This document shows, piece after piece, positions 2,670-30,913 of a stretch of DNA of 31,181 bases. The notes under the pieces are model-generated. The model made no database searches. It saw only the letters and a program-made list of their open reading frames with translations, and was not told the origin of the DNA. How positions within the stretch are numbered: position 1 is the stretch's first letter; each line of letters starts with the position of its first letter. A program made the translations under genes and the position numbers. This DNA is from a virus. The DNA lies in IMG/VR virus record IMGVR_UViG_3300047444_000294, positions 1-31,181 of that record, one strand, 5' to 3'.

Positions 2670-3041
2670 TTAGGGCGCCGCAATCGTCGCGGCGTCAGGA
2701 ACCGATGCGCGGATCTTGAGAACGCCAGCCACTACGATTTCGCTAGATCCGTCTGTATCGGTGACGCGCACTTGGTGATAAATTCCGGCAGTGACCACGG
2801 GAAGGCCGGCTGTGTCCGCAGACGAGAGATTGACCGCCATCTTCCACAACTGCGAAGTCCCGTCTTGCGTGAACGCGCCAGTCTTTTTGATAAACGCCGT
2901 CTCGGCGGATGACGCCGCCGCAATGATGTAAACCCCGCTTGGCGCGGTCAAAACGGCCGGCGTCGTTCCTGTGGCGTAAATCGGGATTTCTAGATCGATT
3001 GTGTCGCCCTGGTAAATCGGGCGGGATGCAAGATCAGTCAT
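2670..3041 (-). CDS. Beta-rich phage structural protein, Ig/BppU-like
   Basis: The 123-aa product begins MTDLASRPIYQGDTIDLEIP and continues with alternating short beta-type segments ending in GIYHQVRVTDTDGSSEIVVAGVLKI. The pattern of an N-terminal QGDT, a dTagLP turn and a final tDxDG-V-xG-xLxI strand pair is common in small head-fibre and baseplate-upper proteins of phages. I infer an accessory tail or fibre-attached protein. ATG at 3041 overlaps the previous stop by one base (TGATG); an in-frame TTG at 3044 is less likely. It is the last structural gene before the lysis cassette. Confidence 0.75.
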   Translation of the reverse strand: MTDLASRPIYQGDTIDLEIPIYATGTTPAVLTAPSGVYIIAAASSAETAFIKKTGAFTQDGTSQLWKMAVNLSSADTAGLPVVTAGIYHQVRVTDTDGSSEIVVAGVLKIRASVPDAATIAAP

Positions 3042-4384
3042 CAACTTGCCTTTCTTTCCCCGAATAATCCGGGCGTCGTGATGGTTTTTGAATAGGCGCC
3101 ATTGACGGAAACAACCGGGTCAAGGCGCATGCCTTTGGTCGATACGTCCCGCGACCATATGCCGGGAATGACAACCAGCCGAGATTGCGGCAGGATTTCC
3201 AGGCCAGAGATAACGGCAATATCCAGCGCTTCCGTCCCCGCCAGGACGCCTTCAGCCGGAACATCGCCCGAAAGCGATGCTGTGTCGGGTTGTTCGCTTG
3301 CATCTAGTGCGCCGGATGTTGCCACATCACCCGAAAGCGATGCGTCATCTTGCCCCTCGGTCGCAGCAAGATAACCATCCGAATCGACCGTTCCCGCGAA
3401 GCTGGCTGCATCTTCCGCCTCAGTCGCGGCTATGATGCCGGACGGAGATCCCCCAACCATCCCGGCTGTAGACGCCACGTCGGGAGCCTCATTAGCAGCC
3501 AGTGCGCCTTCTGTAGCGGTTATGCCCGCCAGCGACGCTGTGTCTGCGGCTTCCGTTACCGCCAATAAACCGGAAGACGCAATAACCCCGGAAAATGCCG
3601 CAGAATCCCCCGTTTCAGTCGCCGCGAGCGCGCCCGTCGTCACTGTGCCAGCAGAGAACAGTAGCGATGCAACCGGGGAAAAAATTGCGTTGAAAGAACT
3701 CGCGCTTATTGCATCTTCGTAGATAGCCAGCATCTCTGCCGGAGTGACGACGCGGTTATATATTTGAAAGTCAGCAATCGATCCGTTGAAATTGAAGCCA
3801 TTGCTTGTGGCACCAATAATCATAGCGCCTGAAAACGAAAATGATGCCGACTGCACGCCAGACCCAAATTGCACGCCGTTGTAATAAATCGCCCAATTCG
3901 ACCCGTTAAAACTGACAGCGACATGCTGCCATACGCCAGCTTTTACAATAGCACCGCCCGTATTATTGCCAATAGCTGTAACACCCTGCTTATTTAGGGT
4001 GAGTCCTCCGCTAATTGTAATAAACTGTGGGGCGGAATTTGATACTGTATGCCCTATGATCGTACCAGTAGCTGTTCCGGTCGTAGTTGGGTTAATCCAC
4101 GCGGAATATGTAAAGGTAGAGATATTTAAGGCGGTAGGAAGGACAACTCCAGAGCCAAGATTGCCGGCGCCAGTGTAGCTAGGCGTCGTAATGCACGGCC
4201 CTATAGGGCTGTCGCCAAGGACCAGATTATGCGACGTGACTTGCGAAAGCGTGCCGGTGTTCTGCTTGCCGCTTGAGTCGAGGGTGCTTCCGCCCTCAAA
4301 CAGATAGCGCCCCACCAACCCCGTCGCGACGCCGCTAGAGGGTTTGAGCGCGGATTTGTCCGGGCTAAATGGCCGGGGGCGCAT
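3041..4384 (-). CDS. LamG/concanavalin-A-like adhesion protein with seven-fold repeat
   Basis: The 447-aa product has two parts. Residues 22-222 form a laminin-G-type (ConA-like) jelly-roll: GLVGRYLFEGGSTLDSSG at its start, then FTYSAWINPT, WQHVAVSFNGSNWAIYYNG and a closing GSIADFQIYNRVVTPAEM, the classic order of LamG_3 domains that bind glycans. Residues about 251-397 hold seven units of roughly 21 residues with the form G-x-L-A-A-T-E-x-x-D-x-A-S-x-S-G-x-V. The last 50 residues look globular again. I infer a virion-attached adhesion protein that contacts surface polysaccharide. ATG 4384 sits in a TGATG overlap with the preceding gene; GTG at 4387 is an alternative. Confidence 0.85.
   Translation of the reverse strand: MRPRPFSPDKSALKPSSGVATGLVGRYLFEGGSTLDSSGKQNTGTLSQVTSHNLVLGDSPIGPCITTPSYTGAGNLGSGVVLPTALNISTFTYSAWINPTTTGTATGTIIGHTVSNSAPQFITISGGLTLNKQGVTAIGNNTGGAIVKAGVWQHVAVSFNGSNWAIYYNGVQFGSGVQSASFSFSGAMIIGATSNGFNFNGSIADFQIYNRVVTPAEMLAIYEDAISASSFNAIFSPVASLLFSAGTVTTGALAATETGDSAAFSGVIASSGLLAVTEAADTASLAGITATEGALAANEAPDVASTAGMVGGSPSGIIAATEAEDAASFAGTVDSDGYLAATEGQDDASLSGDVATSGALDASEQPDTASLSGDVPAEGVLAGTEALDIAVISGLEILPQSRLVVIPGIWSRDVSTKGMRLDPVVSVNGAYSKTITTPGLFGERKAS
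3194..3634 (-). repeat. Seven degenerate about 63-bp repeats inside the LamG gene
   Basis: The encoded units begin GALAATETGD, GLLAVTEAAD, GALAANEAPD, GIIAATEAED, GYLAATEGQD, GALDASEQPD and GVLAGTEALD, spaced 20-23 residues apart. Each has a conserved Glu followed three residues later by Asp, and most then have an (A/S)G turn. At DNA level they are diverged, so they are not recent duplications. Confidence 0.85.
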
Positions 4385-4860
4385 CACGCTACCGAGCGGT
4401 TATAGGTGCGGTATTTGATGGTGTTGCCAGACGACGCCAGCGCGACGCCCGCCTGATTGTAAATCACGAACCTGAAGCTGCCGGGCGGAATCACGATGCG
4501 CGACAAGGTTCCGACAATCGCCGCCGCTCCGGTCGGGAAACTGATGTTGCCGACCCAACATGTCGCGCTCGGAACCTTGGCCGCACCCGTGCCGCTGGCA
4601 AGTTGGCCGTCGCCGTAGGTCGAGCCATCCTCGTTCAGCGGGTAGATGTAGACGCCTAGGAAATTCGGCGCCGCAGCGGTAACTGAACCGAGCGCTACCG
4701 AAATATCCGCGAACATATCGAGCGCGGTCCCGTTCGCGATGTCTGCGACGCTTGACAGCACGGATGACCCGTTCGCCAGCGAATTGACATCGGCGGCGTT
4801 GACGGCCGTGCCCCACGACAGGCCCTGACCAGAGCCTGCAATCCATTTTTCCGTAGCCAT
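4384..4860 (-). CDS. Unknown phage structural protein (158 aa)
   Basis: The protein is rich in Ala, Gly, Ser and Val with short beta-type stretches and a central FLGVYIYPLNEDGSTYGDGQ segment. It has no signal peptide or membrane helix. It lies between repeat-rich adhesion proteins at the distal end of the tail operon, and overlaps the next gene by one base (TGATG). This composition fits a virion surface protein such as a fibre-associated or decoration protein. I do not recognise a named family. ATG 4860 follows GGGGATAATAAG. Confidence 0.75.
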   Translation of the reverse strand: MATEKWIAGSGQGLSWGTAVNAADVNSLANGSSVLSSVADIANGTALDMFADISVALGSVTAAAPNFLGVYIYPLNEDGSTYGDGQLASGTGAAKVPSATCWVGNISFPTGAAAIVGTLSRIVIPPGSFRFVIYNQAGVALASSGNTIKYRTYNRSVA

Positions 4861-5373: not shown

Positions 5374-7089
5374 CTAAACCTTGATGTCGCTTAACTTTTT
5401 ATCCATGTAGACAGCTTGGATTTTATCGATCGTAGTCCCACACGCGGCGGCTAGTACATCGCCATAATCTGATCCATCAAGATAAATAAGCTTTTTGATC
5501 ACGGCCGAATTGTCGTCGTTTCCGATCAACACGCCTTGAATAACGTGTTTACCGTTGGATACATGCAGCCAGTCTTTTTTCCACCTTCCGGTGAACGCCC
5601 CCCAAGGCGTGATCACTTGATACGTTGGCGGATCGGGATAAGGTGGCGTCGTTTTCTTTTCGGAGAAAGTCTTGCCATTCGACCAATAGGGGAATTGGTG
5701 CAGGAAGTAGCTTGTGTTTGTGCCGAAATCAGATGGGTCGCTCCAAGGAAGAGTGACGTTGACATCTAGATATGACAAGGCGGATGAGCCTGTATAAGTC
5801 GTAGTGTCCGACCCAGGATCGCCATTGTTCCAAGAAACGCTAATTGCATCAATAACGGCGTTCGTCGCGCTCGTGACCGAGTCGAGTTTCGTTTTCAGGA
5901 TATCGTATTTGCCATTCTGCGAGAAATCGAGCCGCGCCACCGTCACAGCGCCGCCGCCCGAAATCGCATAAGAAGTCTCGTGCGTGAATTTTACGGGACC
6001 GCCTGGGATTGGCTGTTCTAATTTTTGGGAGTCGAATTCAATAACCGTTTCAACGGGGGGTGTCGAAAAACCGCCCCCGGAATCAAGAGCGCCGCCTGGG
6101 CTAAGGGTATAAGTGCTCGTGACCGTTAATGGCGGTGCGCCGACCGTTGGGCCAGAACCGCTCGTCGTTGTGGTGATGGAGCCAGCCGCCATCGCGGCGT
6201 TCTGGCCCGACGAAAAGGAGGCAGGCGGAATGGTCGATAAAGAGGCGCGCGAACTGAAACCGCTGCCGCTGGTGGCCTCGAAAGCAAGAAATGCCGATGG
6301 GACGCCGGGAACCGTACCGGGCGCAAGCTTTAGCTGTGTGACCTGTACCTCGTCGGACGACCCGCCGCCTGTGGTGTCCCGATAGATCGTGTGGGGCGTG
6401 GCAATATCCGCCATCGGGACCGCCGCGACCTTGCCGCCGTCGTAGAGCACCATGAGGAACAGGCCCCACGATATATCGACGATGTTTTGAAACGGATCGA
6501 GCCTCCAAGGCGGATTGATGTCCGTCCCGTCCGAGGATGTGTCTGGAGGGTCGAGATCGGAGTCGTAGGCAGAATTTTCGGTATTGTCTAAATCGGTGTT
6601 GCCTTCGCCGTCATCCGATGCGTCTGACCCATCCGGCCATTTCAGTTGAAACACGGTTTCCTGATATTGTCGTCTTGGATCGATGACCGAAAAGCGATCC
6701 ACCCGCTGCACCTTGTACCAAGTCCCAGGGTCGTCTTTCCTGAAAACCTTGATCGTGTGCGTCTGAAGATGCTTCGGCGGATCGTCGCTGTTGAGTAGGC
6801 TTGTAATCGCCTCTTGGAAGCTATCCCGCTCGTCCGTCGTATCATAGGAATCGATGCGCTCAACATCGATGGTTGACGACGGGTCATCGATCCCTGTCAC
6901 GGTGACCTTGTGGGTTTTCCGCGAAAGGTTTTGGCTGGTGTTGTCGAATGTATGCTCGGATTCCTGATAGCTGTCATGTGCATCAATGAACGAGATAACA
7001 TCTACAACCGGCCCGTCGATATAGGTGTCCGGATCGTCCGGCTTGGAGAACCGGCGAACCGAGGTTTTGCGGGCGCTTTCGGTAGGCAT
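5374..7089 (-). CDS. Large tail-associated protein with triple DDP repeat
   Basis: The 571-aa product opens with three related units of about 39 residues (about 10-48, 60-98, 111-149). Each has a DDP motif, then a V-x-x-(V/I)-D-x-(I/Y) strand, an aspartate pair and a final (Y/F)QE. An acidic linker (SDASDDGEGNTDLDN) follows, then a long beta-rich region with Ser/Thr/Gly-rich loops to the end. No enzymatic motif is visible. Position after the tail-tip and fibre genes suggests a large virion surface or baseplate-attached protein. Start ATG 7089 overlaps the previous stop (TGATG). I do not recognise a named family. Confidence 0.8.
   Translation of the reverse strand: MPTESARKTSVRRFSKPDDPDTYIDGPVVDVISFIDAHDSYQESEHTFDNTSQNLSRKTHKVTVTGIDDPSSTIDVERIDSYDTTDERDSFQEAITSLLNSDDPPKHLQTHTIKVFRKDDPGTWYKVQRVDRFSVIDPRRQYQETVFQLKWPDGSDASDDGEGNTDLDNTENSAYDSDLDPPDTSSDGTDINPPWRLDPFQNIVDISWGLFLMVLYDGGKVAAVPMADIATPHTIYRDTTGGGSSDEVQVTQLKLAPGTVPGVPSAFLAFEATSGSGFSSRASLSTIPPASFSSGQNAAMAAGSITTTTSGSGPTVGAPPLTVTSTYTLSPGGALDSGGGFSTPPVETVIEFDSQKLEQPIPGGPVKFTHETSYAISGGGAVTVARLDFSQNGKYDILKTKLDSVTSATNAVIDAISVSWNNGDPGSDTTTYTGSSALSYLDVNVTLPWSDPSDFGTNTSYFLHQFPYWSNGKTFSEKKTTPPYPDPPTYQVITPWGAFTGRWKKDWLHVSNGKHVIQGVLIGNDDNSAVIKKLIYLDGSDYGDVLAAACGTTIDKIQAVYMDKKLSDIKV
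6643..7062 (-). repeat. Three tandem protein repeats at the N-terminus of the 571-aa gene
   Basis: Units at residues 10-48, 60-98 and 111-149 align over their full length around DDP, a central V-D, a following D, and Q-E near the end (SYQE, SFQE, QYQE). The spacing is 50-51 residues. The DNA has diverged, so this is an old internal duplication. Confidence 0.85.
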
Positions 7090-16232: not shown

Positions 16233-16259
16233 GACGACGCGGGGTTAATCCGCGCCGTC
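16233..16259 (-). terminator. Hairpin after the major tail protein gene (weak terminator or stabiliser)
   Basis: A 10-bp stem (GACGGCGCGG with CCGCGTCGTC, one G-U pair) has the loop ATTAACC and is followed by TCCTTTAT and the ribosome site of the next gene. The T-run is poor, so partial termination or 3'-end protection of the tail-protein message is more likely than full stop. It closely resembles the hairpin behind the capsid gene. Confidence 0.65.
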
Positions 16260-16269
16260 AGGTTGAAAC

Positions 16270-16980
16270 TCAGGCGATTTCAGCGCCGTAGTACATATTG
16301 AAGTTGTCGTTCGGGACGCCGAAGGTATCGGCCTTCAGGCTCATCTTGGCCTGCTGCGCGCTGATCCAGTCGATTTTGTCGGGGAGCAACTGGAAGCGAG
16401 GGACGATCACCTGAAAATGTTTGCCATAAGCCCCGGCGCCGACGAACTGCACGGCAAGATTAGCCGGCTGCGCGCCCCCGAACTTGACCAGGCGGTTGGG
16501 AGACGTTCCGCTGATCGTGCCGAACGCCATCAGCGCGAGGTTTTCGATGGTGTACTCTTCCAGCGTGAATTCCAACTCGCCCTTACGCTTGGTCAGAAAC
16601 GTAATGTCGGTATTGGTCGCGCCGGTCTGCGAGGTCTGATGATCCTCGCGCGTGTCGGTGAGTTTGGTCGAAAGCGCCGACACGTTGCCGACGCCGGCAA
16701 ACGCGATGCTCGACCAGATGGCCGTTCCGGCGCCGTCAGCGATGCCGGTTCCAGCGCCCTTCGGCCCGCCCGTCGAACCGGACGTTCCGGCGGTCGTGCA
16801 GACGTACACATTGAGCGGCAGCGCTGGTGCGACGGCGGTAGCGTCAAACGTGATCACCTGATCGCCAATGGCGTAGGCGGTCGCGGACGTCCAATATTGG
16901 ATCAGCGGGGCGGTAGTGATGACGCCGACGACGCCTTTTCCGAGATAGTAGTTCTGTGGACCGAGAGGGGTAGCGGTCAT
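16270..16980 (-). CDS. Major tail (tube) protein
   Basis: The 236-aa protein starts MTATPLGPQNYYLGKGVVGV and has an inserted module at about residues 29-95: YWTSATAYAIGDQVITF, NVYVCTTAGTSGSTGGP and DGAGTAIWSS. This resembles carbohydrate-binding or Ig-like modules displayed on tail tubes. The remaining core (LTDTREDHQTSQTGATNTDI, ELEFTLEEYTIENLALMAFG) has the beta pattern of tail tube proteins. Position after the tail terminator gene and before the chaperones confirms the call. The gene is isolated from its neighbours by an upstream terminator and a downstream hairpin, and has an ATGGAGCCTCAAAC ribosome region shared with the capsid gene. The tube oligomerises in hexameric rings to form the tail. 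Confidence 0.88.
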   Translation of the reverse strand: MTATPLGPQNYYLGKGVVGVITTAPLIQYWTSATAYAIGDQVITFDATAVAPALPLNVYVCTTAGTSGSTGGPKGAGTGIADGAGTAIWSSIAFAGVGNVSALSTKLTDTREDHQTSQTGATNTDITFLTKRKGELEFTLEEYTIENLALMAFGTISGTSPNRLVKFGGAQPANLAVQFVGAGAYGKHFQVIVPRFQLLPDKIDWISAQQAKMSLKADTFGVPNDNFNMYYGAEIA

Positions 16981-17081
16981 GTTTGAGGCTCCATTTACAG
17001 GAATGGCGCGTCATCACGACGGGCCGGTATCAGCGCGCTTTACAGCGGGCCGAATGACCTTGCCGAAGGGTCGGTTGGCAC
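16981..17081 (-). promoter_or_regulatory. 5' leader of major tail gene, related to the capsid leader
   Basis: On the minus strand this leader contains CGACCCTT, GGCAAGGTCATT, CGGCCCGC, GTGAT, CGCGCC and ATGGAGCCT in that order; the same blocks occur in the capsid leader. GACC-C-TT and AAGGTC can pair around a four-base loop. A 25-base segment containing TGTAAAGCGCGC is extra compared with the capsid leader. No confident promoter hexamers are seen. Confidence 0.65.
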
Positions 17082-17105
17082 AAAAAAACCGCCTAGATGG
17101 GCGGT
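17082..17105 (-). terminator. Intrinsic terminator before the major tail gene
   Basis: The minus strand reads ACCGCC, loop CATCTA, GGCGGT followed by a run of seven T. It lies 26 bases after the stop of the tail completion gene and should end the upstream head operon transcript. Confidence 0.88.
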
Positions 17106-17130
17106 CATTTTGGATTTCAGAAATTCGGCG

Positions 17131-17604
17131 CTAGGCGCTCAAATCCACGTTAAGCAGCGGATAGGCGAAAGTGATCGAAACTGCCATTTCGCCCTCTACG
17201 CCGGACGCCATGGTGAGAGCCGTAGCGCAGCCCTCATATCGAATGTCGCCGCTTTGCGTGACGAGATCGCGCAGGCTTCCAGGAACGGGCGGGCTGTTGT
17301 CATCGGCAGCTATCGCCTTGAGGACTTCAAGACGTAGGCCGTTCAGATCCGGCCCGACATTTTCCGGCGCGTCGCTCAAAGAGATGAAAATCTCAGGCGT
17401 CATTTTGACGGCCGTCGTTAAGAGCGTGCGAAAGGCGATTTCGGGGATCTTCTCGTCGCGGCTTTCGTGGGCGTCGAACAAGAACAGCGCCGGGCGCAAT
17501 GCCGTCGATGGGTTGAGCGGACGGTTGCGGTAAACCGCCGCAAAGCTCTGAACCCCTTGCAGGATTTCAAACAGGCGGGAAAGGATTGCTTCGCGCCGGT
17601 CCAT
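17131..17604 (-). CDS. Tail terminator / completion protein
   Basis: The 157-aa product begins MDRREAILSRLFEILQGVQS and has the segments RPALFLFDAHESRDEKIPEI and LNGLRLEVLKAIAADD, then DIRYEGCATAL and a C-terminal VSITFAYPLLNVDLSA strand. This alpha-beta layout and the gene position just before the major tail gene match the tail terminator group (lambda gpU-like), which caps the tail tube and joins it to the head. ATG 17604 overlaps the previous stop by one base; a TTG at 17607 is the alternative. Confidence 0.8.
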   Translation of the reverse strand: MDRREAILSRLFEILQGVQSFAAVYRNRPLNPSTALRPALFLFDAHESRDEKIPEIAFRTLLTTAVKMTPEIFISLSDAPENVGPDLNGLRLEVLKAIAADDNSPPVPGSLRDLVTQSGDIRYEGCATALTMASGVEGEMAVSITFAYPLLNVDLSA

Positions 17605-17993
17605 CAAATCCCCATCATCACAAAAAGTATTTCGCCCAACGTATGCCAGTTTGGGACCGGCCTGAGTTGGTCAGCCACGACGCGGAAAGACGGGTCCGGC
17701 TTGTCGTGAACCGAAAGGATGCGAAAGGAGCTGCCGTTAAATGTGATCGACACATCGACCATCTGCGCGGGAGAAACGTTCAGCGCCGCGAGATCGGAAT
17801 TCAGCACGGTGCAACAGGGCTTGACCGCTGAAACTTCCAGCGATTTTTCCTTGAACAGCATCGAAACAGACGAGCGGTCCACAGCCGCCAGCGAGACGCT
17901 TGCCCGCGTGGTTGGGTGGCGGAATGTCAGCGCAAGCCCGGTATCGGCGTAAAGTTTCGCCATTCCGCGCGCGATTATCCCTTGCACGTCCAT
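17604..17993 (-). CDS. Head closure / head-tail joining protein
   Basis: The 129-aa product starts with a helix (MDVQGIIARGMAKLYADTGL) and then a beta-barrel-like series (LTFRHPTTRASVSLAAVDRS, VDVSITFNGSSFRILSVHDK). The small size, order (connector, this gene, tail terminator) and TAATG overlap with the connector gene fit a head-closure (stopper) protein that seals the connector after packaging. No catalytic motif is present. The family cannot be named with certainty. Confidence 0.75.
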   Translation of the reverse strand: MDVQGIIARGMAKLYADTGLALTFRHPTTRASVSLAAVDRSSVSMLFKEKSLEVSAVKPCCTVLNSDLAALNVSPAQMVDVSITFNGSSFRILSVHDKPDPSFRVVADQLRPVPNWHTLGEILFVMMGI

Positions 17994-18688
17994 TATTCGA
18001 CAGCCCGAAAGACGTAGGGGTTAAGCCTTTCAGCTATATCGTGCGGCAATCCGCCCTTCATGGCAGGCGTCGCATATTCGACTTGCGCCACGCCAAAGAG
18101 CGTTTCCTTTGAGACGTTCGGGTCGCGCTTGACCGCAGTCAGGCCGAGGCGAACGAGGTCGATGCACGCGGATTCAATGGCGCCTGGTAGTGTGATCGTT
18201 CCGGTATCGCCGGGGAGGACATAGCCGGTCGTGAATGAAATCACGATCTTGCGATAGGTCCAGAACACACGCATGTCGTTGGACAGCCGGAAAACCCGCA
18301 GGCCGTCTAATTCCCAATCGGTGTCTTGAACCAGCGTGATCATGTTTCCGCTGCCGGCGTCGCGCACTTGCAGCGAGTCAATCGTGACAATCGGACCCAA
18401 GTCGTCCAGCACAATCGGATGCGGCTCGCGATAGAGAACGCCCGGAACCAGCGGATCATAAAGATTGTAGGACGTGTACGCCGGGCGAATCGTCTGTTGA
18501 AGCTGCCTCTTGCCGAACGCCTGCGCGCCGGCCGCCCGCTGGCAATAGGTGGCGATGCGGTTTGACGCCTCATTGATCAGCGCGCCAACCAGCGCCGACT
18601 GCGCCGAGGTCACATCCGAAAACCGCGCCTGAAAATTGGCGAAGGTCGTCAATGCCGTCGAGTTGGCTGGCGTCAGGACGGTCAGCAT
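17993..18688 (-). CDS. Head-tail connector (adaptor, gp6-like)
   Basis: The 231-aa product has an N-terminal helical bundle (LVGALINEASNRIATYCQRA) typical of gp6-like connector adaptors, a loop-rich beta section (REPHPIVLDDLGPIVTIDSL, LDGLRVFRLSNDMRVFWTYR) and a C-terminal helical part (LPGAIESACIDLVRLGLTAV). It forms a ring below the portal. It overlaps the previous 53-aa gene by one base (TGATG) and the next by one base (TAATG), so the connector genes are translated in a coupled chain. Confidence 0.88.
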   Translation of the reverse strand: MLTVLTPANSTALTTFANFQARFSDVTSAQSALVGALINEASNRIATYCQRAAGAQAFGKRQLQQTIRPAYTSYNLYDPLVPGVLYREPHPIVLDDLGPIVTIDSLQVRDAGSGNMITLVQDTDWELDGLRVFRLSNDMRVFWTYRKIVISFTTGYVLPGDTGTITLPGAIESACIDLVRLGLTAVKRDPNVSKETLFGVAQVEYATPAMKGGLPHDIAERLNPYVFRAVE

Positions 18689-18849
18689 CAGGCGCGCTCA
18701 CTCTTGCCGCGCTTGGGCTTTTCGGGAGCAGGTTCAGCCATCCCAGCGGCAATGCGGGCTTTCGCCACGTCGTCCGGCAGATCGATCACAGCGCCGTGAT
18801 CGTAGGAGAAATCGAGGCCCGCCCATGCGACAAGATTGATGACCAGCAT
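18688..18849 (-). CDS. Small protein between capsid and connector genes (53 aa)
   Basis: ATG 18849 follows a perfect ribosome site (CCGGAGGCTTAC). The product begins MLVINLVAWAGLDFSYDHGA, continues VIDLPDDVAKARIAAGMAEP and ends with a basic tail (KPKRGKSERA). The middle segment resembles short phage proteins found between capsid and connector genes. It is the first gene after the hairpin that closes the capsid cassette, and its stop is coupled to the connector start. The function is unknown. Confidence 0.85.
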   Translation of the reverse strand: MLVINLVAWAGLDFSYDHGAVIDLPDDVAKARIAAGMAEPAPEKPKRGKSERA

Positions 18850-18870
18850 GTAAGCCTCCGGTTCATAAAG

Positions 18871-18899
18871 AAAGGTCGGCGGGGGTTAGCCCACCGACC
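18871..18899 (-). terminator. Hairpin terminator after the major capsid gene
   Basis: On the minus strand GGTCGGTGGG and CCCGCCGACC form a 10-bp stem (one U-G pair) around a CTAACC loop, followed by TTTCTTTAT. It lies 12 bases after the capsid stop codon. The broken T-run suggests partial readthrough into the connector genes, which have no other visible promoter. Confidence 0.75.
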
Positions 18900-18910
18900 T
18901 AAGTTATTGA

Positions 18911-20134
18911 TTACGTGGCAGAATTGGCGTAGTAGGCAATCGGATGCGTGCCGGCATCGACGAGGGCGCCGTCGAATCTCTGCCACAACATAAATCCGAC
19001 CTGCGCATAATCGGCGTAGCGTTCGGTCAGTCGCATGGCGACCGCGCCGTTAACCCTGCGAATGTAATAATTCTTGAAATCGCCAAACAGCACCGACTTG
19101 GCGTTCGCCGCCATGCTCGCAACCTGTTGGTTGATGACGTACGGATACCCGTTGATGGTGTCTGGGTCGTTAGAGGCGAGGCCAGCGAGCCACAAGGGGC
19201 GGCCGTAGCTGTCCTTGAGCTTCTTGATGACCTTTAGCGAACTGTCGTTCATCATGAAACGGGCGTTGGCGCGATAGGCCGGATCGACCGAATGTTCCAG
19301 ATCGATCAAATCGTCGTAGATGATCGAGGTAGCCTGGCCGGTCAGGCCAGCCTTGCCGGAAACGGCATCGATCACGACACCGCGAGGCTTGCTGGAACCG
19401 TCGCCCGTCGTGAAGTGGGTATTGGTGATGCGCGCGATTCGGGTCGCCAGCTTGTTGGCAATGAACGCGTCGAGATCGAACGCCGAATCCTGCAACAGTT
19501 GCAGGGAGACGAGAACGGCCTTGGACGAGTACATGTAGGCGCCGAGCGTCACCTGACCGAAGGTGATGTCCTGCGTCGCGACCTGGGTGTTTTCCGAGAT
19601 GATCGCGCCGACGTTGCCGGTGTCATTGTCGGTTGGGATCGGAAGCGACTGGCCGGAATCGGTGTCGAGGACTTCAGAAACCGAAAGCATACCGCCGAAG
19701 GCAAGCTGCGCATCGATCAATTTGCGGTAGAAGCCAGTCGGGACGGTGTATCCGCCGCCCGTGGTCGTGCCGATGCTCTGCGCATTCTGGATCGACTTGC
19801 GGATCGCAGCGCGCTCGCCGTCCGTCAGGGCTGCGTTAGCGCCGAAACGCATCGACTTGTTGAAGGCGCTGTTTTCGATCTCGGCTTCGTTTTCAGCCTG
19901 ATCGGTCGAAATGCCGGCCGAGCGGGCGCGATTGCCGATGACGACCGACATTTCGGCGTCGAGCAGTTCGGCGCGTTCGAGACGGTCAATCTGCGCCTTG
20001 ATCTCGTCGCCCTTTTCCATCAGGGCGTCGAACTGGGCATTGTCTTCGTTGGAGGGGTTTGCCTTGTCAACGAGCGCGCGAGCGTCCGCAACAAGCTGTG
20101 CGCGCTCAGCGCGCAAGTCTTTGGCAATAGCCAT
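18911..20134 (-). CDS. Major capsid protein, HK97 fold
   Basis: The 407-aa product has an N-terminal scaffold-like delta region (1 to about 110) that is helical and charged (DLRAERAQLVADARALVDKA, DEIKAQIDRLERAELLDAEM). The HK97 core follows: GTTTGGGYTVPTGFYRKLID, LPIPTDNDTGNVGAIISENT, FGQVTLGAYMYSSKAVLVSL, LLQDSAFDLDAFIANKLATR, then GSSKPRGVV and a C-terminal LFGDFKNYYIRRVNGAVAMR. The delta domain is expected to be removed by the protease encoded upstream. The gene has its own leader and lies between two terminator hairpins, consistent with a separately controlled, highly expressed unit. ATGGAGCCTAACCAAA precedes the ATG. Confidence 0.95.
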   Translation of the reverse strand: MAIAKDLRAERAQLVADARALVDKANPSNEDNAQFDALMEKGDEIKAQIDRLERAELLDAEMSVVIGNRARSAGISTDQAENEAEIENSAFNKSMRFGANAALTDGERAAIRKSIQNAQSIGTTTGGGYTVPTGFYRKLIDAQLAFGGMLSVSEVLDTDSGQSLPIPTDNDTGNVGAIISENTQVATQDITFGQVTLGAYMYSSKAVLVSLQLLQDSAFDLDAFIANKLATRIARITNTHFTTGDGSSKPRGVVIDAVSGKAGLTGQATSIIYDDLIDLEHSVDPAYRANARFMMNDSSLKVIKKLKDSYGRPLWLAGLASNDPDTINGYPYVINQQVASMAANAKSVLFGDFKNYYIRRVNGAVAMRLTERYADYAQVGFMLWQRFDGALVDAGTHPIAYYANSAT

Positions 20135-20210
20135 TTTGGTTAGGCTCCATCTAGGGATGGGCGCGCAATCACTGCGGGCCGATGACCTTGCCCAAGGGTC
20201 GTTGGGGCAT
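20135..20210 (-). promoter_or_regulatory. 5' leader of major capsid gene
   Basis: The leader carries CGACCCTT, GGCAAGGTCAT, CGGCCCGC, GTGAT, GCGCGCCC and ATGGAGCCT in the same order as the major tail leader. GACC-C-TT and AAGGTC can form a small hairpin with a GGGC loop. The upstream flank (20250-20277) contains GGCCCGCTTTGAAGCGCGCC, similar to the segment that is extra in the tail leader. No confident promoter was found. Confidence 0.65.
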
Positions 20211-20241
20211 AAAAAAACCGCCCAAATGGACGGCTTTTTTA
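20211..20241 (-). terminator. Intrinsic terminator before the major capsid gene
   Basis: The minus strand has AAAAAAGCCGTCC, loop ATTT, GGGCGG and T7. The A and T runs extend the stem, making it a likely bidirectional terminator. It should end transcripts that have passed through terminase, portal, protease and HTH genes. Confidence 0.88.
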
Positions 20242-20283
20242 GAGGTTGGCGCGCTTCAAAGCGGGCCAGAATCTGGCAATGCT

Positions 20284-20577
20284 CTACTCTGAGCGCGCCG
20301 ATTCAAATTCGCGATATTGACGCTCTGGCGTCCATTCGTCCTCTTGTTGGAACCGGGTGAGTGACGGTCCAATCATGCGGGTGACATCGGCCCTGATCGC
20401 GTCCATCTTTGCAGACCGATCCGCTCGCGCCTTAGCACGTTCATCCTTCAAGCAGATTTGGCGAATAGTTTCCCTCGTCACGCCGAATTTCTGTCCGATA
20501 GCGTGAAGCGTCATGCCGGAAGTGCGAAGCCGGACGATTTCCTGATTACGCTCTATGAAACAAGCCAGGAACACCAT
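20284..20577 (-). CDS. Small HTH protein resembling sigma70 region 4
   Basis: The 97-aa product carries at residues 8-42 a helix-turn-helix with the sequence TLHAIGQKFGVTRETIRQIC. This is close to sigma70 region 4.2, whose consensus is TL-x-x-IG-x-x-FGVTRERIRQI. The remainder is charged (DERAKARADRSAKM) and ends EWTPERQYREFESARSE. It lacks other sigma domains, so it could be an anti-sigma-like or regulator protein that contacts promoter DNA, or a packaging-related DNA-binding protein. ATG 20577 sits in a TGATG overlap with the protease gene and follows GAGG. Its place between protease and capsid genes is not a standard position for a regulator. Confidence 0.85.
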   Translation of the reverse strand: MVFLACFIERNQEIVRLRTSGMTLHAIGQKFGVTRETIRQICLKDERAKARADRSAKMDAIRADVTRMIGPSLTRFQQEDEWTPERQYREFESARSE

Positions 20578-21314
20578 CACGCAACCTCAGCAATTCTCAG
20601 ACGCATCCGCATCCGGGAAATTGAATTCTTTTTCTCGTCCGGCTCGTTTTCTTCGTCCGGGTCTTTCTGGTCCGGTTCTTCCTCGGAATCCGGGTCAATG
20701 GCGTCGATGAGGCCGGCGTCTTTGGCTCCTTGCGCGGTGAACCAAGTCCCATCAACGGGGCCGTCCATCATCTTGACGCAGTCTTCTGCGGACATGCCGC
20801 TTTTCGCCACATAGACCGACAATATTTCGCCATCTATCTTGTCAAGCGTATCGGCCATATCGCGCATGTCGTGCTTGTTGCCCTGAACGCCGCCCCAAGC
20901 GTTGTGGACCATCATGAACGAATGCTGCGCCATGATGACCTTGTCGCCCGCCATTGCGATGTAAGACGCAGCGGAAGCGGCGAGGCCATCAACAATGGTC
21001 GTAACATTGGCTGGATGCGCCCTCAGCGCGTTATAAATGGAGAATCCATCGAACACGTCCCCCCCTGGGGAATTGATCCAGCATGTGATATTGGGCGTTT
21101 TCACAGACGAAAGCTGCGCCTTGAAGGCGCTCGCCGTAACGCCCCAATCTCCGATTTCATCGTCAAGCAGAATCTCGGTGGTATCGGGCTTGGACGCCGA
21201 TGCGCGAAACACCGCCTGCTTGGGGGCAGCGTCCTTTGGTGCGGCATCCCTTGGGGCGCGGTTTTTAAATTGCGCCAACCAGTTTTTGCGAACAGCGTCA
21301 AGCGATTTGTTCAT
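20577..21314 (-). CDS. Prohead maturation protease, ClpP-like (S14/U35 type)
   Basis: The 245-aa product has the ClpP fold signature: CWINSPGGDVFDGFSIYNAL (about 78-97), the nucleophile region VDGLAASAASYIAMAG with Ser114 in the ClpP position, and HSFMMVHNAWGG with His137. Asp in DGPVDGTWFTAQGA completes the likely triad. The C-terminus is very acidic (about 207-230), then basic. It cleaves the capsid delta domain during head maturation. It overlaps the portal gene by 4 bases (ATGA) and the HTH gene by 1. Confidence 0.93.
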   Translation of the reverse strand: MNKSLDAVRKNWLAQFKNRAPRDAAPKDAAPKQAVFRASASKPDTTEILLDDEIGDWGVTASAFKAQLSSVKTPNITCWINSPGGDVFDGFSIYNALRAHPANVTTIVDGLAASAASYIAMAGDKVIMAQHSFMMVHNAWGGVQGNKHDMRDMADTLDKIDGEILSVYVAKSGMSAEDCVKMMDGPVDGTWFTAQGAKDAGLIDAIDPDSEEEPDQKDPDEENEPDEKKNSISRMRMRLRIAEVA

Positions 21315-22600
21315 GGTTTCTTTTCCGATGCGGTCGCAGGGTCAGCGCCGGGCGCCTTGGGCTGCTGTCCCGCCATCGTGAGGGGAACGCAGGCCGAGTT
21401 AATGAAAAGCTGGTCGCCGCCTTCCATCGCCGGAAGGTTCTGGAATTTGCGAAGCTCGTTCGGCGTCAGGCCGCCATTTTGGATCATGGTCGCGTAAAAC
21501 GATCCGCGCGCCGTGGCGTCCATCGCAAGCAATGCGTCGCGGTTGAATTCCGCGTAGACGTTGCGGTCTTTCTTGAACAGCTTGCGGTTGAATTCGTTTT
21601 CGATGCGCGCAAGCAACGGCTGCAAGGTCGTCATCAGAAAGCCGAGCATCATCTGTTCGATGCCGCTGCCCCACGAGGTTGCCTTGTCCGTCTCGCCAAC
21701 CATGTGCGGCGGGACGCCGAAGATCCGGCAAATGTCCGCGACCTGGAAGCGCCGCTGCTCCATCGTCTCGGCGTCAGCCGGCGTGATCTGCATCGGTGTC
21801 CACTTCATCCCCTTGTCGAGGAAGACGGTCTTCCCGGTGTTGGCGAGTCCGGAATATGCCTGCTCAAACTGAGCCTTAACGCGGCGCACTGCGACGACTG
21901 GATCAGCGCCCCACCCATCCTCAGCCTGCACCACGCCAGATGGCCGAATACCGTTAGAGTGCATCCGAGAAGACGATTCCTCCATCGCAAGCGAGAGGCC
22001 GATGGCTTGCCGTGACGCGGAAATCATCGACAGGCCAGCCACGCCGTCAAAGCCCATGCCGGCAATATGCAACATATTATCTTGATCGACGGTTTCATGA
22101 CCATCGGCAAGCTGGATCGTGTAGACTTGACGCCCGGTTTCGGTCTTGTGGGTCGTGACAGCGTTGCGCGGAACCGGAAAGAAGCCCGTGACGCGCGCGG
22201 CGCCGTCATATTCGATCACCGAATAATGGTTTCCGCCCAAAAGCAGATCAACCGCGACCAATTCGCGCCAGCAAAACCCGCTCATGATGTCGTTGGGATT
22301 ATCATGCAACAGTGGGTAAACCCTATTGCGATCAGCGACTTTGCGGCCTTCTTTGTCCTTTTCGTAGACCATCAGCGGGAGAGACGCGATCAGGCCCGAA
22401 ATCAGCGAAACGCAACGGAAAACCGTCGTCGAGCGCAGCGCGGATTGCTCATTGACAACCGGGCCGGCAAGGGTCGGGCCGCCGCCTAAAACCGTCATCA
22501 GCCAGTCGGCCGGGTTCGCCAGCGACGTTGACGGGTTTTCGGGTGATCCAGCTTGCGCGTCCGTCGCCGGGGCCTTTTCCTTGCGTGAAAAAGGCCACAT
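21311..22600 (-). CDS. Portal protein, HK97 family
   Basis: The 429-aa product starts MWPFSRKEKAPATD and contains VVNEQSALRSTTVFRCVSLI (N-terminal clip region), LLLGGNHYSVIEYDGAARVT, then FQVADICRIFGVPPHMVGET and NGGLTPNELRKFQNLPAMEG, all hallmark segments of HK97-type portals. The portal forms the dodecameric ring through which DNA is packaged. I place the start at ATG 22600, which shares one base with the terminase stop (TGATG); a GTG at 22615 would add five residues. Confidence 0.94.
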   Translation of the reverse strand: MWPFSRKEKAPATDAQAGSPENPSTSLANPADWLMTVLGGGPTLAGPVVNEQSALRSTTVFRCVSLISGLIASLPLMVYEKDKEGRKVADRNRVYPLLHDNPNDIMSGFCWRELVAVDLLLGGNHYSVIEYDGAARVTGFFPVPRNAVTTHKTETGRQVYTIQLADGHETVDQDNMLHIAGMGFDGVAGLSMISASRQAIGLSLAMEESSSRMHSNGIRPSGVVQAEDGWGADPVVAVRRVKAQFEQAYSGLANTGKTVFLDKGMKWTPMQITPADAETMEQRRFQVADICRIFGVPPHMVGETDKATSWGSGIEQMMLGFLMTTLQPLLARIENEFNRKLFKKDRNVYAEFNRDALLAMDATARGSFYATMIQNGGLTPNELRKFQNLPAMEGGDQLFINSACVPLTMAGQQPKAPGADPATASEKKP

Positions 22601-24300
22601 CAGGCGACGCCCCACAGTTCGGAATAGTCAAAGATCGTCGGACGGCTGCGCGGTTCGGGGTTCATCGACATCAGAGCCGCAGCATCGAACAAAGCCATCA
22701 ACGGGTCGATCTTGGCGACGCCGGACGCCTGTTTGGTGATCATCGCGGCGTTTCCCTTCAATTCGATTTTGGCGTTGCCTACGCACCATGCCATGAGGTC
22801 TTGGCCGCCATGTTTCATCGTGCCATCAGCCAGCTTGCGCTCGGTGGTCTTGATCGCGCCTTGCAGTTTGTAGCCCTGCGACACCGCGACCACGCGCTCG
22901 TCGCCTATTCCCGCTTCAGCAAGGGCGTCAATAACCGATCCCACGCCATAAGGATCAAGGCCAACGGATGCATTTCCAGCCAAAATTCCAGCATCTTCAA
23001 GCCTCTGCACATGCGCCACGACGGCGGCGATGTCGTCGCCAAGATCGTTAATGATCGTCAGGTCTCCGGCCTTGGCGAAGTCATTCATCTGCGCGGCAAT
23101 CGCCTTGCGCTTTTCCAGAACTGAGCGATGGCAGAAGGAATGCGTCCAGCACAACCAGCGTTTTGATCCCTTTTCGCGACCGATCACCGCCAGGCCAAAA
23201 AGATCGTCGAGGCCGCCTCCATCGACGCCGACGACCGCAACCTCGGAACGGGCGATCAGGCCATCGAGGGTCAGGCCCTCTTCTGCCGCGTCTTCCCAAA
23301 AATCAGCGCCAGCCCATCGGTCGGAGCGAAGCGACATTCCTATTTCGACGTTCAAGTGCTTTGCGAGAAAGCCCCGCAAACTCTCTTCGCCGGCGTTCTG
23401 CGCCTTGCCTAATTCATCGACTAACCATTCCCGATCCACCGAAAGTCCGATGTTGGGATTGGTGACGTGGAGATACTCGGTTTCGAGATAGGACTTATTC
23501 GAAACCATCTCTTCGGGAAATTCGTAAATGACCGGCAGCGACCGCTTGTCGGTGATCTTGCCGTCTCGCACGTCGCGGTAGTAATTCAGTTTCTGCCGGA
23601 AGATGCCGCTCGGAGGCTCGTCTGATTGCGTCGAGAGGTAGACGACGAATCCCTCTGGCCTCGATACAAGACCGCCCGTCGCCTCACGCAGCATGTTCTC
23701 AGCGTTAGCCCGCTTTCCGAACAGCCAAAGCTCGTCAATCAAGACGCCGGTGGCTTTCTTTCCCGAAACCGTATCGTTATCCGCCGCCACGACTTTGAGC
23801 GTGGCTCCGGTCCCGCGATGGGTGATCGTCTTTAAGTGATCCTGAACGTGCAGCAGATCTGACAATTCGTCGTCGGCCTTGACCATGTCGCGGGCCGGGT
23901 AATACGAATTGTTTGCGACTTCGAGCGTAGGCGCCACGATCAGGAATTCCGCGCTCTTTCGCCAGTTGCGCAGAAGCGCCGTCAGCATGATCCCGGCCGC
24001 CGTAGTGGATTTGGAATTCTTTTTGCTTATCAGCATGAAGAATTCGCGGATCAACCGTCGGCCGGTTTCGTGGTCATAGGCCCCGAAGATGGCAGAGGCG
24101 AAATCTTGAACCCATTCCCGCGACGATTCACCGATGACCGGGCTACCAGGCGCATCCACAATCTTGAGCGCGTTGAACGCTTCCATCGCCGCGCTCGCCT
24201 CAGCGGGGAACAGCGGCGCGAACGGGATTAGGCTTTTTCCCGCAATGATCCGATCCCGCCAGTCAAGGCAGGCGGTTGACCATTCTGGGATGTGGGTCAT
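22600..24300 (-). CDS. terL: Terminase large subunit
   Basis: The 566-aa product has the packaging ATPase: Walker A SKKNSKST (residues 92-99) of the HK97-like type, Walker B VLIDE (186-190) and the coupling motif at VVYLSTQSDEP. The C-terminal nuclease has acidic residues in VVGVDGGGLDD (D360), GLDPYGVGSV and KIDPLMALFDAA. It cuts concatemeric DNA and drives it into the prohead. The start overlaps the small terminase stop (ATGA) and the stop overlaps the portal start. Confidence 0.95.
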   Translation of the reverse strand: MTHIPEWSTACLDWRDRIIAGKSLIPFAPLFPAEASAAMEAFNALKIVDAPGSPVIGESSREWVQDFASAIFGAYDHETGRRLIREFFMLISKKNSKSTTAAGIMLTALLRNWRKSAEFLIVAPTLEVANNSYYPARDMVKADDELSDLLHVQDHLKTITHRGTGATLKVVAADNDTVSGKKATGVLIDELWLFGKRANAENMLREATGGLVSRPEGFVVYLSTQSDEPPSGIFRQKLNYYRDVRDGKITDKRSLPVIYEFPEEMVSNKSYLETEYLHVTNPNIGLSVDREWLVDELGKAQNAGEESLRGFLAKHLNVEIGMSLRSDRWAGADFWEDAAEEGLTLDGLIARSEVAVVGVDGGGLDDLFGLAVIGREKGSKRWLCWTHSFCHRSVLEKRKAIAAQMNDFAKAGDLTIINDLGDDIAAVVAHVQRLEDAGILAGNASVGLDPYGVGSVIDALAEAGIGDERVVAVSQGYKLQGAIKTTERKLADGTMKHGGQDLMAWCVGNAKIELKGNAAMITKQASGVAKIDPLMALFDAAALMSMNPEPRSRPTIFDYSELWGVA

Positions 24301-29490: not shown

Positions 29491-30395
29491 GCCGCATCCT
29501 CCCGGCTAGAGGGGGGATATTCGGAGGGGAAGGTCCAGCCACCCTTGGCGTCAACGGGGCATGATTTCCCGGTCGTCTGGCGCTTGTGATCCTGCCAGGC
29601 CTCTAGCTGTTTCGATCCGGCTGGCGCGTAGAAGCTGGATGAGACGAGCGCGAGGGCAGGCGCCTGCTGCTGGAAGCCCTCAAATCTGCGCTGCGATAGG
29701 AACCGGCAGGCATGAACGGTCGAGTAGGTGGGGTTGGTGCGGCAATAGGCCCGATACGGCTCTACGGCCTCCGTAGCCGATTTGCGATCTTCGGGAGAAA
29801 GCTTGCCCCATGCGGCCAAAGCTTCCTTTCGGCTCATGATTGGCGTGGTGGGATAGGCTTTCCAGAAAGAAAGAAATTCATCCGAAGGCTTCGAAGTGGT
29901 CTGGGGCGGCGAAGCCGTTTCGGACAAAGAACTTTCTCTTAACTGGTTATTGGTATCTGGTATCTGGTTAGGTAGGCTTTCGCTAGGCTTTTGACAGCCA
30001 ATCGCTTGTGGCGTTCCGTTAGCATCGCTGTTAGCATCGCTAGGGGTAGGTTTAAGCTTTTTCAATGCCTTAGCACGTCCGCCAGCACGTCCGGCATCAG
30101 CCAATTTTTGCGCCTTGCTAGAAGCAATTTCAAACTCCAGCTTCAGGCGTTTTTGAGTTATGGCTTTTCCGTCATCGGACATAAATTCCATGATAGACGG
30201 CGCGATCTTCCGCCACTTATCGAGCGACAGGCGAGCAACTCTGGCAATGCGTATTTCATCGTTCGGAAGGGTTCCGCCAGCGCGCCACATCGCCATGAGG
30301 ATCAAAAGGTAAGCGCCGTGCTCTGTTGTCGTCAGGTGAGACGTGTCGGCCATATAGGCGTCTGTCCAAAGAAGCATCGCGGGAATATCGGTCAT
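29487..30395 (-). CDS. DUF1376-like phage replication protein
   Basis: The 302-aa product begins MTDIPAMLLWTDAYMADTSH, continues TTTEHGAYLLILMAMWRAGG and IARVARLSLDKWRKIAPSIM, the winged-helix pattern of DUF1376 proteins found near phage replication genes. A basic and Asn/Ser-rich linker (about 125-175) joins a C-terminal domain (FLSFWKAYPTTPIMSRKEAL, AWGKLSPEDRKSATEAVEPY, HACRFLSQRRFEGF). It may load a helicase or assist initiation with the DnaA-like protein encoded just upstream. Both ends overlap neighbours with ATGA. Confidence 0.85.
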   Translation of the reverse strand: MTDIPAMLLWTDAYMADTSHLTTTEHGAYLLILMAMWRAGGTLPNDEIRIARVARLSLDKWRKIAPSIMEFMSDDGKAITQKRLKLEFEIASSKAQKLADAGRAGGRAKALKKLKPTPSDANSDANGTPQAIGCQKPSESLPNQIPDTNNQLRESSLSETASPPQTTSKPSDEFLSFWKAYPTTPIMSRKEALAAWGKLSPEDRKSATEAVEPYRAYCRTNPTYSTVHACRFLSQRRFEGFQQQAPALALVSSSFYAPAGSKQLEAWQDHKRQTTGKSCPVDAKGGWTFPSEYPPSSREDAA

Positions 30396-30913
30396 GGCCC
30401 GACCGTCCCGGCGTCAATGCGCGCCTGGTGCCGCTTGATGGCGCTGTGAACGGTCGTGTGGTCCTTGCCTCCGAAGAATTTACCGATCTGCCCAAGGCTC
30501 CATGTCGTGTATTTCGACATTTCCCACATGGCATGATGCCGAGCGCGGACGATCTTGGCTTTGCGCTGATCCCCTTTGATCTGCTCGATTGTGAGATCGT
30601 ATAAATCGGCCTTGGCGCGCAGGATCAGCCATGCGCGGTCATGCGAGAGCGATGGGGGGCCCATAGGGGAAGGATAGATCGTGCGGCAGTCGCGTAACCA
30701 TTGGCTCTTACGGGCGCGCCAAGGCCAGCGTGGCAACTCATCGTCAGATAATGGATCGGCCTGCACTATGATGCGCGTGAACGCCAGGATTACGGCCTCG
30801 CGGGTCGAGATCGGCGCGGGTGGCAGAGGGGCGACGGGAACATCCTCAACGCGCGGCGGCGGAGCAAATCCCAACCGCGCCCGGCGAGCTTGGTACTCGG
30901 ATAACGCTTGCAT
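30392..30913 (-). CDS. DnaA domain IV-like DNA-binding protein
   Basis: The 173-aa product has a proline-rich N-terminus (FAPPPRVEDVPVAPLPPAPI) and a C-terminal helix-turn-helix matching DnaA domain IV: RARHHAMWEMSKYTTWSLGQ, then IGKFFGGKDHTTVHSAIKRH, where KDHTTV is the DnaA box-contacting signature. The ATPase part of DnaA is absent. It may bind DnaA-box-like sites at the phage origin or compete with host DnaA. It starts 5 bases after the upstream gene and overlaps the DUF1376 gene. Confidence 0.88.
   Translation of the reverse strand: MQALSEYQARRARLGFAPPPRVEDVPVAPLPPAPISTREAVILAFTRIIVQADPLSDDELPRWPWRARKSQWLRDCRTIYPSPMGPPSLSHDRAWLILRAKADLYDLTIEQIKGDQRKAKIVRARHHAMWEMSKYTTWSLGQIGKFFGGKDHTTVHSAIKRHQARIDAGTVGP

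Follow-up and report, generated by a model that had tools for sequence, protein, structure and literature searches.

The window, as the whole 31,181-nt stretch of viral DNA analysed in the present study is called here, carries on its minus strand the gene of an HK97-type major capsid (head) protein (18911..20134; phrog_10, 2e-73) and the gene of a major tail protein, MTP (16270..16980; phrog_807, 3e-11). Each gene is preceded by a leader element, located at 20142..20204 (-) for the capsid gene and at 16986..17076 (-) for MTP and matched by the covariance model R1 with 74.7 and 56.9 bits, respectively. As was found by the covariance-model search, the window holds exactly two copies of the element. 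An earlier note on this DNA had proposed that the two genes share a leader, and a comparison of the window with itself bore this out: the strongest repeat within the whole 31 kb was that of 20154-20243 with 17026-17114 (78% over 91 nt, E 7e-12), the terminators included. Intrinsic terminators ending in T7 lie 5' of the capsid leader (20211..20241, -) and of the MTP leader (17080..17106, -), and hairpins with TAACC in the loop stand 3' of the capsid gene (18873..18900, -; 11 pairs) and of the MTP gene (16233..16259, -; 10 pairs). The sequence blocks, terminators and hairpins listed in that note were all found on the minus strand at the positions it had claimed.

A 98-aa helix-turn-helix protein is encoded in an unusual location (20284-20580, -), with the maturation protease on one side and the capsid leader on the other; it shows a weak likeness to the PHROGs of sigma factors and late transcription activators (E 1e-5 to 1e-4). 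An imperfect inverted repeat (23986-24072; 71% over 90 nt, E 2e-5) lies within the large ORF 22600-24300, which is probably the terminase gene. The single ORF 3041-4387 (-) contains a diverged direct repeat (3240-3370 and 3498-3628; 62% over 135 nt), which suggests internal protein repeats. The 173-aa protein encoded at 30392-30913 (-) belongs to a family present in six of the 13 element-bearing phages and had no PHROG match.

The element is about 65 nt long and comprises two hairpins and a Shine-Dalgarno (SD) sequence at its 3' end. Hairpin 1 of the capsid leader (20184..20200, -) reads GACC-C-UU-GGGC-AAGGUC, with a bulged C and the apical loop GGGC at 20193-20190, and its stem covaries in relatives. 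Hairpin 2 (20160..20180, -) reads GGC-C-CGCA-GUGAU-UGCG-C-GCC, with a C.C mismatch and a GNRA(N) loop. In the MTP leader, the respective structures are GACC-C-UU-CGGC-AAGGUC (17056..17072, -; apical loop CGGC at 17065-17062) and GGC-C-CGUC-GUGAU-GACG-C-GCC (17005..17025, -). In the family, the stem of hairpin 1 covaries freely and includes a bulged C and two U-A pairs, and its loop is NGGC. Hairpin 2, which is conserved in sequence as well as in structure, has a four-pair inner stem, the C.C mismatch and a three-pair outer stem; its loops (GUGAU, GUGA, GUAA, GCGA, GAGAU and GUGAC) fit GNRA, some of them with one base added, and its outer stem GGC/GCC becomes GCC/GGC or GAC/GUC in the wider set, both sides switching together.

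The GUGAU loop was considered as a match to AUCAC near the anti-SD at the 3' end of 16S rRNA. The loops GUAA, GCGA and GAGAU do not fit this match, whereas they do conform to GNRA(N). Some leaders contain tandem copies of hairpin 2; besides an extra hairpin-2-like copy with a GUAA tetraloop in the MTP leader (17032..17051, -), which was read from the sequence and is absent from the earlier note, such copies occur in L360, L135 (584-661) and L104 (4615-4750). In L119 (11824-11886, -), the reverse complement of hairpin 2, GGC-G-CGUC-AUCAC-GACG-G-GCC, follows a normal hairpin 1 and precedes the SD, which gives the appearance of an inversion in situ, and the same element is found in L207 (Kaistia dalseonensis). 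This arrangement would test the importance of the GNRA loop.

The model R1 was built from 28 sequences, in which 98.9% of cells are paired and 45 two-sided changes were counted against 11 in shuffles (0/500); this covariation was lost when the partner strand was slid. The alignment obtained with R1 and subsequent searches comprises 75 copies, with two-sided changes at 10 of the 13 pairs and in 132 cells against 28 in shuffles (0/500); it was fitted to the covariance model and hence leans towards it. A selection-free test employed a DNA pattern which left four stem positions of hairpin 2 open. These positions were complementary at 35/35 viral places with an SD and an ORF, versus 8/119 (about 1/16) of genome matches, most of which are chance matches in GC-rich coding DNA. 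The two hairpins covary beyond the shuffled and slid controls, and the blocks are clearly conserved in relatives beyond background; a lack of such conservation had been set beforehand as a refutation test. Both hairpins were recovered unprompted by RNAalifold, which also proposed a third helix, UCC/GGA, over the SD, at positions that hardly vary. Folded as single sequences, the MTP leader favoured the structure (z -2.2) and the capsid leader did not (z -0.47); the covarying fold was not the one of minimum energy. Roughly one in three aligned copies has no canonical hairpin 1, so a lone hairpin 2 may be enough.

The SD terminates nearly all copies, the start codon follows 2-8 nt further on in most of them, and the strand and the spacing to the downstream gene are fixed across copies. 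Three records (L110, L115 and L122) keep GATGGA and have no GGAG-type SD. The SD region of the capsid gene (20142..20148, -) includes GGAG (20148-20145) and an overlapping GCCU (20145-20142) complementary to the hairpin-1 loop; that of MTP (16986..16992, -) includes GGAG (16992-16989) and an overlapping GCCU (16989-16986) that would pair with the loop over three pairs. Complementarity of this loop to the bases immediately 3' of the SD recurs in the family: GCC follows the SD in 42 of the 46 copies with an NGGC loop and in one of the 20 without it (p 9e-12, a value that overstates the independent evidence, as the counts come from related copies). Divergent loops have matched partners as well, namely GGAC/GUCC in L095, GGGAC/GUCCC in L132, GGACC/GGUCC in L092 and GGGAGAC/GUUUCCC in L128. 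These exceptions are hard to explain otherwise than by a pseudoknot; a permutation test on the loop complementarity alone gave a modest result (5/500). Judging by the sequences, the hairpin-1 loop and the post-SD bases look like the two sides of a pseudoknot, which is less firm than the covarying hairpins. The suggestion of the earlier note that the leaders could be a cis-acting RNA gains support from this complementarity and from the compensatory changes in the two hairpins.

It seems fairly probable that each leader is a conserved pseudoknotted cis-acting RNA controlling ribosome loading on the adjacent gene. Control of translation initiation is suggested because the conserved structure includes the SD together with its 3' flank, and pairing of the SD exceeds that at 206 control starts (median unpaired 0.25 vs 0.34, p 0.0017). 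The element would be transcribed within the late polycistronic mRNA, where hairpins 1 and 2 would stand just 5' of the SD, and pairing of the hairpin-1 loop with the post-SD bases would make the ribosome-binding site part of the fold. The element is put by phages mainly before genes for products needed in large numbers, and the likely net effect would be a high or well-timed output of the tagged genes relative to their operon neighbours. The action on translation, with the direction and size of its effect, is what we infer; for the direction, only the identity of the chosen genes serves as a guide, and pairing of the SD could bring about repression rather than enhancement.

The main rival, which appears unlikely, is that the element serves as a site of mRNA processing or 5' stabilisation: a nuclease would cut just 5' of it, and the folded end would make the capsid or tail segment of the mRNA more abundant by shielding it. 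The intergenic position of the element on the operon mRNA suits such a site, as do the other hairpins that the window and its relatives have upstream and in some cases also 3' of the gene, an arrangement resembling that of segmental decay. However, conservation extends to the SD and beyond it, and the hairpin-1 loop matches the post-SD bases, which would be needless for a pure 5' cap; besides, a conserved cleavage region upstream of the element was not found.

The earlier note had described a cassette of terminator, leader, gene and hairpin. The cassette is present at both genes of the window, but it is not general: a terminator stands upstream of only three of 55 copies and downstream of five, and the 3' hairpins vary even among close relatives. 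An unrelated hairpin replaces that of the capsid gene in most relatives, and the MTP hairpin is retained in L010 only, among the relatives with the MTP 3' end read; the MTP genes of L003, L004, L005, L007 and L009 have neither the upstream terminator nor the 3' hairpin. These counts bear on the possibility that the element works in antitermination, as an RNA of the put or nut type modifying RNA polymerase in cis. Its length of about 65 nt and two hairpins resemble HK022 putRNA (PMC9378689), and terminators lie near both window copies. However, the window terminators are upstream of the element, and the copies go with the starts of virion genes and carry the SD, rather than following promoters, which makes antitermination very improbable.

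The other proposal of that note, a class of promoters that a phage-modified polymerase would read, could draw on the terminator immediately 5' of each window leader and on the small helix-turn-helix protein that precedes the capsid leader and weakly resembles late transcription activators. It failed on several counts and is extremely improbable. No motif exceeded 0.39 bits in the 60-nt stretches that precede 55 copies, a sigma-70-like site was found at neither window leader, and many copies overlap the stop codon of the upstream gene; the compensatory changes in two stems and the varying loop length also speak against a promoter.

Among the genes identified downstream of the element, all encode virion proteins. 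Matches to PHROG head or tail families were obtained for 35 of 40 downstream proteins, which fall into families and are not all independent; the remaining five had no informative match, and none belonged to another functional class. Major head proteins of several unrelated families (PHROGs 10/617, 1005, 264, 283 and 334) and tail tube or major tail proteins (PHROGs 158, 584, 807, 1407, 185 and 290, the last corresponding to Pfam Phage_tube_2, a tail tube family) are accompanied by a sheath (165), scaffolds (3927 and 673), one virion structural protein of 563, one portal and one tail fibre. The targets are thus virion proteins, mostly high-copy ones, in agreement with the idea that genes needed in the greatest amounts are chosen. 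An operator, whose hairpins (e.g. at the GNRA(N) loop) would be bound by a phage or host protein that switches translation of virion genes, would suit the conservation of hairpin 2, its tandem copies in some leaders and a host range confined to Alphaproteobacteria in the samples searched. However, no phage protein common to the carriers was found: no family occurs in more than seven of the 13 near-whole records, and the widest-shared ones are the head-tail adaptor and the terminase. Sharing of the element by unrelated capsid, tube and sheath genes does not fit autoregulation by one product, and the real matches in host genomes stand only before virion genes, so a host regulon is not seen. An operator is therefore rather improbable.

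From a single operon, phages produce capsid and tail-tube subunits by the hundred but only a dozen portals, a difference often ascribed to promoter strength or SD quality. With a discrete portable RNA before high-copy virion genes in unrelated phages, this dosage question becomes directly testable. The element might also be used as an expression part for Hyphomicrobiales and as a marker for virion genes in prophages.

The same leaders precede the capsid gene, MTP or both in nine close relatives of the window phage (about 90-92% capsid identity), and wherever the contig covers both starts, the leader is found at both. The open-stem pattern of hairpin 2 matched 54 viral contigs, most of them with the same layout. 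The 75 aligned copies belong mostly to phage contigs and Hyphomicrobiales prophages, and the near-whole records have 1-3 copies each. The element was found in 14 of 397 Hyphomicrobiales genomes (two of the 14 chance-like), in two of 24 genomes of a second alphaproteobacterial order, in four of 385 genomes of a class-wide sample (two chance-like, one being the centre genome) and, in a phylum-wide sample (n=398), in the centre genome only; carriers include Sinorhizobium medicae, Brucella endophytica and Kaistia dalseonensis. The element family is widespread across many unrelated phages of root-nodule-type bacteria. The covariance-model matches L363, L364, L368 and L369 lie in coding sequence and are chance-like. 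A blastn search of the INPHARED named phages with two consensus queries gave no real copy; its match in Burkholderia phage BgManors32 lies inside a CDS on the opposite strand. In L114, a phage-borne tRNA-Thr (CGT; 5916-5991, -) is located just 5' of one copy of the element, and the second copy is likewise preceded by a tRNA-like stretch.

The RNA family is new to the Rfam 15 catalogue. At the curated gathering score, Rfam 15 had no matches in the window and 17 element-bearing loci, and the E-value mode over the leaders gave terminator look-alikes only, which agrees with the statement of the earlier note that no named RNA family could be matched. The literature on structured leaders of phages, covered with most subscription journals outside the scope, contained nothing on the element. 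It is possible, rather than probable, that the element serves as an RNA dosage tag of unrelated alphaproteobacterial tailed phages (long-tailed, contractile-tailed and probably short-tailed), that is, as a pseudoknotted ribosome-loading element passed between phages, which would mark bulk virion genes and act on the ribosome directly, without a dedicated protein.

In the operators of ribosomal proteins and the leader of T4 gene 32, a pseudoknot near the ribosome-binding site governs initiation, mostly autogenously and for one gene or family. The element resembles them in having an RNA pseudoknot near this site, but it precedes many unrelated genes in unrelated phages. Cluster K mycobacteriophages possess start-associated sequences (SAS), 13-bp motifs GGGATAGGAGCCC at the start site with the SD inside, which are found on non-structural genes in 11-19 copies per genome and are suspected of a role in translation; about half have an extra upstream module with inverted repeats (extended SAS, ESAS), for which RNA pairing has little support, according to the authors (PMC3203893). 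Like SAS and ESAS, the element is a short phage motif that includes the SD and precedes a subset of genes. Unlike SAS, it ends in GATGGAGCCY and not in GGGATAGGAGCCC, and it differs from both in its strong pairing support, virion-gene targets and 1-3 copies. The put RNA of phage HK022, about 70 nt long and with two stem-loops, is present more than once per phage, lies 3' of early promoters and targets RNA polymerase (PMC9378689). The element has a similar length, two stem-loops and multiple copies per phage, but it includes the SD and stands at late virion genes by their start codons, rather than downstream of a promoter with terminators beyond.
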